Positions 38,648 through 42,900 of a stretch of DNA of 64,000 bases are shown here, piece by piece; the stretch's first letter is position 1; each line of letters opens with the position of its first letter. The DNA comes from Arabidopsis thaliana (Eukaryota; Streptophyta; Magnoliopsida; Brassicales; Brassicaceae). The notes under the pieces are model-generated. The model ran no database searches and was not told the DNA's origin. It was given only the letters and a program-made list of their open reading frames with translations. The position numbers and the translations under genes are program-made. The stretch covers positions 13,703,001-13,767,000 of the forward strand of contig NC_003075.7 of NCBI RefSeq assembly GCF_000001735.4, read 5' to 3'.

Positions 38648-40613
38648 GCATAAATAACTATGATTTTGGATTGTAGCTCAGACTTGGTATGAAACCGGTT
38701 TTAGCTGTTATAGGTAAACGGATTTAGTCTAAACCTGTGTGTAGTTTAAACCGATGTATGTTTTCACATAAGATTTGATGGAACTAGATCTTTAGCTATG
38801 AAATGGATCCCAATTGCGAGTGGTATCAAAGACATACAGAATTTAAAGTAGGGAATTTCAACAAATCAATCACATTGTTCTTTACAATTTCAAAAAACTT
38901 GTGGATGATATTAATATCAGATTTTCTAAATTTATACGAAAATGGAATGATATTAAGAATAGTATACAGAAAAATGAAGAAAAGAGTAACTGATTTTTGC
39001 ATCTTAAAAAAGAAAAAGTCTTCTCTGGTTCACACATCACACAAGTTGGGGGCGGTGATGAAGGAGGGTGTTTAGGTAATATCAGCTAACGTCGGAACTT
39101 CAACTGATCATGTAGTACGTACGATACGAAGAAGAAGAATCTAATCCGCATGACATGTGATTATTTTGGTCAGAGAGAGAAGAGAAGACGTGTGTCGCAG
39201 CAAAGTGGACAGTTGTGCCCTTATAGCCAAAGAAGACTTCACACGTTTTCAACACCACCTAACAACTGTTTCTTTCTATCTCCCACCTCTTCCCCATTTT
39301 TGTCTTTTTATTTCTTCTTCTAGTTTCTCCCAATTTTCTCTTTGATTTTTTTTTGTTTTTTCTTGTCTTCTTGTTAAGATTGATACATGAACTAATAGAG
39401 TAACTAGTAAATTCTAAGACCTTTCAGCATTCTTGAAATGACAATTACAAACACACGATAATTTGCGGGAACATGAATGATAGAAGACATTAGAAAAAAA
39501 AAACTCCAATGTATAAAAAGTTTATGAAAAATATAATAACATTTTTTACGAATTATTCAGTTTTCTGTAAATTTTTATTTATTTCGTAAATGCTTGTATC
39601 TAACATTTCAGCTAGATTGTTCTACTGATTAATTTCTATCTAACATTTTATGAACTTTATCATTTCAGTAACCGCAATGCCCGTGACCACTCTGCATATA
39701 AAAGTGTATGTCTTCTTCACATTCAATCACACGTACTTTCAAAATTCTACTAAAAATTAAATGTTTTTTTTTTATATAACTAATCAAAGATATCTAAAGT
39801 TTTTGAGTCAAAGTTATGCGTTACTCAAATAGAAAAAAACATTTAGAAACCTAAAATAATATCTGCTCCTCCTAAAACATTTAATAACATTCAAAAACAA
39901 GTCAATAAAAAAAAAAAAATTTACGAATAAAGCCCTTAATTAGTCAAAAATGAACGAACAAAACAAAGGTAGGAGAAAGTATGAATGGCCCAATCGGGGA
40001 GATTGCAGTAGATTCATACAAATCTGTAAATACAATTTTACCGGGTTTGGTAAAAATCACAATAGATCATTTTTTATTAATAAGAAAGAGAAAAAGAATG
40101 CAAATTCGTGGGGTTTCCAAGAAATGCAAGTGATATATTTAGAGATTGAGATCTGACCCCATTTTTTGCTTAACACACAAAAAATCCTTGGGCAGAGGAA
40201 AAAGTTTATAGCGACTCTTTTCCTCTAAAAGGGTCTGTCTCTTCCTTCTTCTCTCTTCAGATCTCCATTTCACGGTATCCTTCTCTCTTCCCCTTGTCTC
40301 TATTGACTTTTATTTGCTTTGATTTTTATCGATCGTCTCTGATCTTTTGCTAATTTAACTTGTTTCCGTTTGTTTTGAATTTACTCTCTCCTGATCTTTG
40401 GCATGTATTTTGAATCTGCTGTTCTTAGTTTTTTATTTGATCTTGTTCTCGTCTGTCTTAATATTGAATAATTGACTAGTTTTATTTACAGATCTTTGCA
40501 TTATAGATCCCTTCAAGTGCGATTTTAATCGTAGATTAGTTTTGGATCCGTTATATTGGACTGATGTTTTTGATGTATTTTTTGGTATTAGGATCAATCC
40601 TGTGTTTGAAACA
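38648..40613. other. Intergenic region and PPI1 leader
   Basis: AT-rich DNA. The right end contains the PPI1 5' leader with a likely leader intron: GT at 40275-40276, AG either at 40490-40491 or at 40590-40591. No coding exon seen elsewhere. Confidence 0.45.
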
Positions 40614-42900
40614 ATGGGTGTTGAAGTTGTAAACTCTGGTGGATTTGAGGTTGCTCCGGCTCCTTTCGAGGGGAAACCTGAGAAGAACGGGAAGCTGGAC
40701 CAAGGAAAAGGAGATGATGCCCCCATCAATTTTGGTTCAGTCGGTGAGCTACCAAAGAATGCCGAAGAGAATAATAACAAAGTGGTCAACTCTGATGCAC
40801 CCAAAAATGCAGCAGAAGAGTGGCCTGTGGCTAAGCAGATCCACTCTTTCTACCTTGTTAAATACCGTTCTTACGCTGACCCCAAAATTAAAGCTAAGCT
40901 TGATCTAGCTGATAAAGAGCTTGAAAAGTTGAACAAAGCTCGGACTGGAGTTTTGGACAAGTTGAGAGCTAAGAGGGTATGTTTTTTTTGCTACCTTCTT
41001 GTGTCGGATTTAGGAGTTTCGTTATTTCTTTTATAGTGGTGCTGATAATGCGGTTTTGGTAATGCCTAGGCCGAGAGATCAGAGTTATTTGATCTGCTGG
41101 ACCCGTTGAAGTCAGAGCGTAAGGGATTCAACACAATGTTTGATGAGAAAAGAAAGGAAATGGAACCATTGCAGCAAGCACTGGGAAAGTTAAGGAGCAA
41201 TGATGGTGGGAGTGCTCGTGGCCCTGCTATCTGTTCCTCCGAGGAAGAGCTGAATAGTATGGTAATTATATGAGACCTTTTTTTTTGTTTTCGATAGCTT
41301 TGGTTAGCCTTTTCGGTATTCTCATTTGCCTGAGTTTGTGGAAAATGAAGATATACAGCTATCAGTATCGGATTCAACATGAAAGCATTCCGTTAACCGA
41401 GGAGAAGCAGATTCTCAAAGAGATCAGGCTGCTTGAAGGGACAAGAGATAAGGTCATTGCTAATGCCGCTATGAGAGCCAAAATCAAAGAATCTATGGGT
41501 CAGAAGGATGATATCCAAGGTCAAGTTAAGGTAAGAGAGTTGTGGCCGGATTCTTGCTGTTATATAGTCTGTAGAAGTTGGTTTCATATGTGATGCTTTT
41601 TGCAGTTAATGGGTGCTGGTTTGGATGGAGTGAAAAAGGAGAGGCAAGCAATTTCAGCAAGGATTAATGAGCTGAGTGAGAAGTTGAAAGCTACCAAAGA
41701 TGAGATTACGGTACTGGAAAATGAGCTCAAGACTGTGAGCGAAAAGAGAGACAAAGCCTATTCAAACATTCATGACCTCAGGAGGCAACGCGATGAGACG
41801 GTACAAACACTTACTTTTGAGCATTTTCTTCTGATGAAGAAGGATTCGTTTGTGTCAATTAGTAATCTTTGATTTTTGTATTCTTTTCTCATACAGAATT
41901 CCGAGTATTACCAAAACCGTACTGTGTTGAACAAAGCTAGAGACTTGGCTGCACAAAAGAACATAAGCGAGCTTGAGGCGCTAGCCAATGCTGAGGTTGA
42001 GAAATTTATATCCCTTTGGTGCAGTAAGAAGAATTTCAGAGAAGATTATGAGAAGAGAATCTTGCAATCACTTGATTCTAGGCAGCTGAGCCGAGATGGA
42101 CGGATGAGGAACCCCGATGAGAAGCCTCTGATTGCTCCAGAGGCAGCACCATCAAAGGCAACGCCTTCTGAAACCGAGGTTGTCCCTAAAGCTAAGGCAA
42201 AGCCGCAGCCAAAGGAGGAACCAGTTTCTGCACCTAAACCAGATGCTACTGTTGCTCAGAATACTGAGAAAGCTAAAGATGCAGTAAAAGTAAAGAATGT
42301 TGCTGATGATGATGATGATGAAGTATATGGTCTTGGAAAGCCGCAGAAGGAAGAAAAGCCGGTTGATGCAGCTACGGCGAAGGAAATGAGAAAGCAAGAG
42401 GAGATTGCTAAAGCCAAGCAAGCCATGGAAAGGAAGAAGAAGCTGGCAGAGAAAGCTGCTGCTAAAGCTGCTATAAGAGCTCAAAAGGAAGCTGAGAAGA
42501 AAGAAAAGAAGGAAATTACCTTTTCTTTTTTGTTGTACCTCAATGCTCTTTGCATTCTTCTCTCTCCATTCTAACAGTTCTCGCCATCTTTTTTTGTGTG
42601 TTGCAGGAGCAAGAGAAGAAGGCCAAGAAGAAAACCGGAGGCAACACAGAAACCGAGACTGAGGAAGTTCCAGAAGCTTCTGAGGAGGAGATTGAAGCTC
42701 CGGTGCAGGAGGAGAAACCGCAGAAGGAAAAAGTCTTCAAGGAGAAACCAATAAGGAACAGGACCCGCGGTAGGGGACCAGAAACGATCCCAAGAGCGAT
42801 CCTTAAGCGTAAGAAGTCGACTAATTACTGGGTTTATGCTGCTCCAGCGGCTCTGGTGGTACTGTTGCTTCTTGTCTTGGGTTACTACTACGTTCTCTAG
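40614..42900 (+). CDS. PPI1: Proton pump interactor 1
   Basis: Six coding exons (40614-40976, 41070-41261, 41351-41530, 41606-41800, 41897-42511, 42607-42900) encode 612 residues. The N-terminal ~90 residues are acidic and disordered. A long coiled-coil region spans ~95-390 (repeated EKLNKAR, ISARINELSEKLKATKDE, HDLRRQRDE). A Lys/Glu/Ala-rich segment with a five-Asp run follows. The protein ends in a tail anchor YWVYAAPAALVVLLLLVLGY at ~587-610. From the literature PPI1 binds the autoinhibitory C-terminus of plasma-membrane H+-ATPase AHA1 and stimulates it; it sits mainly on the ER. The join between the last two exons is odd: the donor is not GT (42512-42513 is GA; a three-base shift gives AT-AG), yet the frame requires removal of this 95-base segment, and the 612-residue product agrees with PPI1 as I recall it. 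Confidence 0.93.

Follow-up and report, generated by a model that had tools for sequence, protein, structure and literature searches.

The PPI1 locus and its coding exons

The window analysed here is the whole stretch of 64,000 nucleotides at C4:13703001-13767000 of Arabidopsis thaliana, whose genome was used with 119.66 Mb in seven contigs. The window contains the gene PPI1 (At4g27500) on the forward strand, which was identified by matching the primers printed for At4g27500 in PMC5716242. Two of these primers map at 42339-42359 and 42775-42796, on either side of the last PPI1 intron, and a third one is present in the joined PPI1 coding sequence and absent from the unspliced DNA.

Following the reading frame, the coding sequence of PPI1 is made of six exons on the forward strand, of which the first four are found at 40614-40976, 41070-41261, 41351-41530 and 41606-41800. 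The fifth coding exon (41897-42511) becomes exon 6 when a 5' leader exon is included in the numbering, and its 3' end up to 42511 is a purine-rich stretch, ...AAGAAAGAAAAGAAG. The last coding exon (42607-42900) carries the C-terminal hydrophobic anchor and ends with the stop codon TAG at 42898-42900. The joined exons have 1839 bases and translate into 612 residues with a single terminal stop, which agrees with the length of 612 residues given for PPI1 in PMC11394911.

Besides the coding introns, PPI1 probably has an intron in its 5' leader at 40275-40591 on the forward strand. Because this intron would add one to the count, the "intron 6" of the published gene model corresponds to the fifth coding intron here. 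The leader intron begins with CACG|GTATCCTTCT, which by eye agrees at 8 of 9 positions with the U12 donor consensus RTATCCTTT. A candidate for the U12 branch site, which has the consensus TTCCTTRAY and is found close to the acceptor, is GTTTTTGAT with 6 of 9 matches, about 18 bases from the acceptor. The leader intron may be a GT-AG intron of the U12 type; its donor match is weak when taken alone, because [AG]TATCCTT is found nine times in the window, counting both strands. Furthermore, a natural antisense RNA, At4g07855, is named with PPI1 in PMC10363097, with high expression throughout pollen development.

The last intron and its termini

The last intron of PPI1 (42512-42606, forward strand) is 95 bases long. 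It starts with GA at 42512-42513, it ends with AG, and its removal restores the reading frame, as is characteristic for the GA-AG group of plant non-canonical introns. The GA-AG intron of PPI1 is already known and in print: Pucker et al. 2017 (PMC5716242) describe PPI1 with seven exons and a GA-AG combination in intron 6, which is the same intron, based on Sanger-sequenced cDNA amplicons of the accession Nd-1. The junction is thus established by the published cDNA of Nd-1, and the present analysis adds to it the anatomy of the sequence, the frame and the sequences of the paralogues. We found no discussion of paralogues or of the origin of the GA in the sections of PMC5716242 used here.

A preliminary description of this stretch had claimed that the reading frame can only be continued by passing from 42511 to 42607 and that the left border lacks a GT. 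Both claims hold. The intervening 95 bases contain an in-frame TAA at 42572-42574, which is reached when translation continues through 42512, and there is no GT dinucleotide in the 168 bases across 42364-42531. A first-order model of that exon predicts 4.7 GT in 168 bases, and zero GT occurred in 0.9% of 20,000 simulated stretches. We scanned for alternative introns of at least 60 bases, taking donors from 42272-42571 and acceptors as far as 42760. The scan gave 110 GT-AG pairs with an open frame, every one of which costs the product 24 to 122 residues. In addition there are 359 GC-AG, 233 AT-AG and 53 AT-AC pairs with an open frame; the GC-AG and AT-AG pairs were counted only, and some of the AT-AC pairs come near to the full length.

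The same mRNA is obtained from five placements of the cut, namely AG-GC, GG-CA, GA-AG, AA-GG and AA-GA, and GA-AG is the only one among them with an AG acceptor. Shifting the intron to 42515-42609 gives AT-AG termini. As the preliminary description had stated, the AT-AG and GA-AG placements lead to the same protein of 612 residues, but their mRNAs differ, with GAA in the former and GAG in the latter. cDNA therefore separates the two, and the predicted reading of the junction is AAGGAGCAAG for GA-AG and AAGGAACAAG for AT-AG. The 13-base motif GAAATTACCTTTT is found at 22 places in the genome compared with 23 for its reversed control and is therefore not special.

Probable assignment to the major spliceosome

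We infer that the last PPI1 intron is of the U2 type, which is meant as a statement on the mechanism and not on membership in the canonical class. Its donor AAG|GAAATT (42509-42517) agrees with the usual donor consensus CAG|GTAAGT at six of nine positions, which are -2, -1, +1, +3, +4 and +6. The mismatches are at -3, at +2, where the T is missing, and at +5. U2-type introns have GT or GC at this place and the last PPI1 intron has GA at 42512-42513, hence it is non-canonical. The remaining features are U2-like. CTAAC at 42571-42575 fits the U2 branch pattern CTRAY and is probably the branch site, with the branch A at 42574, 32 bases before the intron end. It is followed by a pyrimidine-rich tract with the acceptor, TTTTTTTGTGTGTTGCAG|G (42580-42606), so that the intron ends in TTGCAG|G.

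The preliminary description had also considered removal of an AT-AG intron (42515-42609) by the minor U12 spliceosome. The donor of this placement, ATTACCTTT, matches the U12 consensus at 7 of 9 positions, against 2 of 9 for the GA placement, and the protein is the same as with GA-AG. However, the two mismatches at +3 and +4 lie in the core of the consensus, the GT-AG intron of PPI1 at 40977-41069 likewise reaches 7 of 9, and the homologous introns of the paralogues reach 3 or 4 of 9. The best match to the U12 branch consensus in the last intron is 5 of 9. TTCTAAC, which had been read as a weak U12 branch site, contains CTAAC and is better understood as a good match to the U2 pattern. Moreover, it is 32-35 bases away from the intron end, and U12 branch sites are usually nearer. 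The paralogous introns match the U12 branch pattern at 7 of 9 positions, but this score discriminates poorly, as two of the four GT-AG coding introns in PPI1 reach it too. Finally, the published call is GA-AG (PMC5716242), which implies AAGGAGCAAG at the junction. Removal as an AT-AG intron by the U12 machinery is highly improbable on these grounds. The earlier claim of a non-canonical last intron is borne out in its GA-AG form by the published cDNA, and its AT-AG or U12-like form has to be given up in view of the poor donor and branch site.

The homologous intron in the paralogues

A protein search in the same genome found relatives of PPI1 on chromosomes 1, 3 and 5. The intron is kept at the same position and in the same phase in the chromosome 3 gene, which we take to be At3g15340, and in two copies on chromosome 5. 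These two PPI-like genes (C5:14415200-14417132 and C5:14474500-14476432) are 59.3 kb apart, have the same search scores and are identical around the intron. As they are identical over the compared stretch, they would go back to a recent duplication. The PPI-like gene on chromosome 1 (C1:19791471-19792010) reads through the intron position without an intron, which therefore either disappeared from this gene or was acquired by the others. One scan of viral_contigs gave no relatives of PPI1 exon 5.

Judged by the reading frame, the donor of the chromosome 3 paralogue would be AAG|GCAATC and that of the two identical chromosome 5 copies AAG|GCAATT, both joined to GAG as in PPI1. A GC would thus be found at the homologous donor in three of the three paralogous copies which keep the intron, with donors taken from the frame and not from cDNA; two of the copies being identical, the argument is built on no more than two different introns of paralogues. 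The chromosome 3 gene was searched from 60 bases before the intron to its end and has no GT donor there that keeps the frame. In the chromosome 5 gene, of which one copy of the two was examined, the natural acceptor can be reached from two GT donors, with introns of 41 and 32 bases, which is too short for plant introns. Longer frame-keeping GT introns of this copy require acceptors within the purine-rich exon. There are also seven GC further upstream in the exon which keep the frame in both the chromosome 3 and the chromosome 5 gene. We set these aside because their use would delete conserved residues and because their place is not homologous. In all, none of the four intron-bearing copies, representing three distinct sequences, appears to have a plausible GT donor.

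The putative GC donors that the paralogues have at the corresponding site are a small addition to the published record. None of the papers listed by a literature search named At3g15340 together with GC-AG; genome annotations probably carry the GC donors, so novelty is not implied.

History of the donor

The paralogues suggest a history in which GC came before GA. Among the 161,774 annotated introns of A. thaliana, 1742 (about 1.1%) have GC donors and 14 (about 0.01%) are GA-AG introns, as tabulated in PMC10668435. Because both are this rare, an independent loss of GT in PPI1 and in its paralogues is unlikely, and common descent from a non-GT donor would be the simpler account. We consider it likely that the last PPI1 intron is a U2-type intron whose donor drifted from GC to GA, and which is cut before 42512 at AAG|GAAATT and joined at 42607 as TTGCAG|GAG, giving the normal PPI1 of 612 residues. 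A more far-reaching reading, in which we have about even confidence, is that this intron has had no GT since before the PPI duplication. It would then have carried a weak GC donor (AAG|GCAAT), with the later change to GA in PPI1, so that GC would be a stepping stone to GA-AG introns in plants, and it would mostly be the purine/T-rich boundary, and not U1 pairing, that keeps the donor in place.

Alternatively, the GA of this U2-type intron could have come straight from GT in the PPI1 lineage, while the paralogues acquired their GC on their own. In favour of this course, introns usually start with GT; against it, GT would have to be lost twice, independently, at one homologous intron, in a genome where GC makes up around 1% of the annotated donors, and the precedent in Trema passed through GC (PMC10668435). 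We regard it as unlikely.

This precedent is intron 12 of SYMRK in Trema orientalis, where a step from GC to GA left around 95% of the transcripts spliced compared with 99.9% for GC, and the gene remained functional when the GC-to-GA change was engineered in Parasponia (PMC10668435). Like PPI1, SYMRK is a working plant gene with a GA-AG intron and with relatives that have GC at the same donor. The GA of SYMRK is a regional allele and was compared between accessions and species, whereas the GA of PPI1 is in the reference genome and the comparison is between paralogues. A further parallel is the copepod Eurytemora affinis, with 36 sampled GA/GG donors, for which an AG at the exon end is obligate and an A at +3 is nearly always found (PMC5714493). 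The PPI1 donor shares both the AG and the A at +3. GA/GG donors make up around 12% of the sampled introns of E. affinis, in contrast to the 14 GA-AG introns of A. thaliana.

Recognition of the GA donor

The PPI1 GA donor and the putative GC donors of its paralogues are each predicted to form a duplex with U1 of -3.0 kcal/mol. For the four coding introns with GT-AG termini the values are -4.3 to -9.5 kcal/mol, and at least two other places in exon 5, among the top ten listed, reach -4.6 kcal/mol. Since it is weaker than these introns and these exon places, the GA donor is not singled out by U1 pairing itself. Position counts against the donor consensus, with 6 of 9 for the GA donor and 6, 6, 7 and 4 of 9 for the four GT-AG introns, flatter the GA donor relative to its predicted duplex.

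The base composition changes abruptly at the last intron. The last 30 bases of exon 5 are 90% purine and contain 3% T, followed by 48% T in the intron and 0% T in the next 30 exon bases. The four other PPI1 introns have 40-48% T, two of them 45 and 48%, and are flanked by 10-27% T before and 27-33% T after the intron. The contrast at the boundary comes from the exon side, because T is no higher in the last intron than in two of the other PPI1 introns. We infer that the position of the cut would be set by the AG at the exon end, the G at +1 and the A at +3, and that it would also be guided by the abrupt change from a purine-rich exon to a T-rich intron. The good branch site, the pyrimidine tract and the acceptor may help to define the boundary, and without a rival GT over 168 bases AG|GNA could be enough at the donor.

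Two other explanations for the use of a GA donor involve U1 more directly. A nearby canonical GT could recruit U1 and the cut could then slip to the GA, as has been suggested for non-canonical sites generally (PMC6310983). The same has been put forward for the human FGFR GA donor, for which PMC7072748 cites a canonical site six bases further upstream, and a GT is also found close to the GA donor of AGY1 in the same genome, four bases downstream (ACG|GAAAGTAATT, read from the sequence). Around the PPI1 donor, however, the closest GT on the upstream side is 150 bases away, and the two on the downstream side (42532 and 42535), at distances of 20 and 23 bases, share 2 and 4 of 9 positions with the donor consensus, so that we see hardly any chance for slippage in PPI1. 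A variant U1 snRNA with a U opposite +2 that reads GA donors, which was proposed for Eurytemora (PMC7072748), is likewise very unlikely in A. thaliana. The canonical ACTTACCTG 5' end is found in all 12 U1 loci that pass the Rfam cut-off and, counting all matches, in 14 of 16, the remaining two being weak matches with 5' ends that are not readable. No U1 with an altered 5' end was detected among the 41 candidates scored out of 1492 first-look candidates in the genome. The boundary defined by composition, branch site and acceptor thus stays the preferred explanation for PPI1.

Intron 4 of AGY1 (At4g01800) is a further GA-AG intron of the same genome and is confirmed in PMC5716242 as is that of PPI1. 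It lies within C4:772000-776500. Its predicted U1 duplex has -6.2 kcal/mol, compared with -3.0 in PPI1, and pairs partly with the downstream GTAA, which alone gives -3.2 kcal/mol. With a nearby GT in AGY1 and none in PPI1, GA-AG introns in one genome may therefore have different origins.

Retention of the last intron

The preliminary description had proposed that the intron could be regulated by retention, which would truncate the tail anchor. On retention the stop is indeed reached and the anchor is lost, but the effect is not a simple truncation, because 20 hydrophobic residues replace the anchor. The product would have 535 residues (515 + 20, by arithmetic) and end in EITFSFLLYLNALCILLSPF. 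As retention would affect the last coding intron, no downstream exon junction would mark the message for decay, assuming that there is no intron in the 3' UTR.

A regulated switch, in which the retained intron swaps the tail anchor, would fit the hydrophobicity of the retained tail, with a best 19-residue mean of 1.88 compared with 2.26 for the real anchor, so that the retention protein might still meet membranes. It would also fit the less complete splicing of a GA donor in SYMRK (around 95% compared with 99.9% for GC, PMC10668435). The paralogues speak against it: translation of the chromosome 3 intron ends after two codons, and the chromosome 5 intron contains no stop in frame, so that reading continues out of frame in the following exon. 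Moreover, T-rich introns are expected to read as hydrophobic, and the chromosome 5 intron reaches 2.16. Because the stop and the tail differ in the paralogues, the hydrophobic tail looks more like a side effect of T-rich introns than a conserved switch, and we consider regulation by such a switch very unlikely. No literature report on retention of the last PPI1 intron was found; the one paper that contained the locus name together with intron retention, PMC10363097, has a single passage on PPI1, which concerns the antisense transcript.

Implications

As the last PPI1 intron is already documented, it is ordinary as a discovery. Gene finders without transcript hints can misread PPI1, as reported for Nd-1 in PMC5716242. 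The intron is useful as a natural experiment, in which one genome has the same intron with GA in PPI1 and, going by the frame, with GC in the paralogues. Such a pair of GA and GC donors permits a direct test of the weight of the second donor base in plant splicing and of GC as a way to GA.
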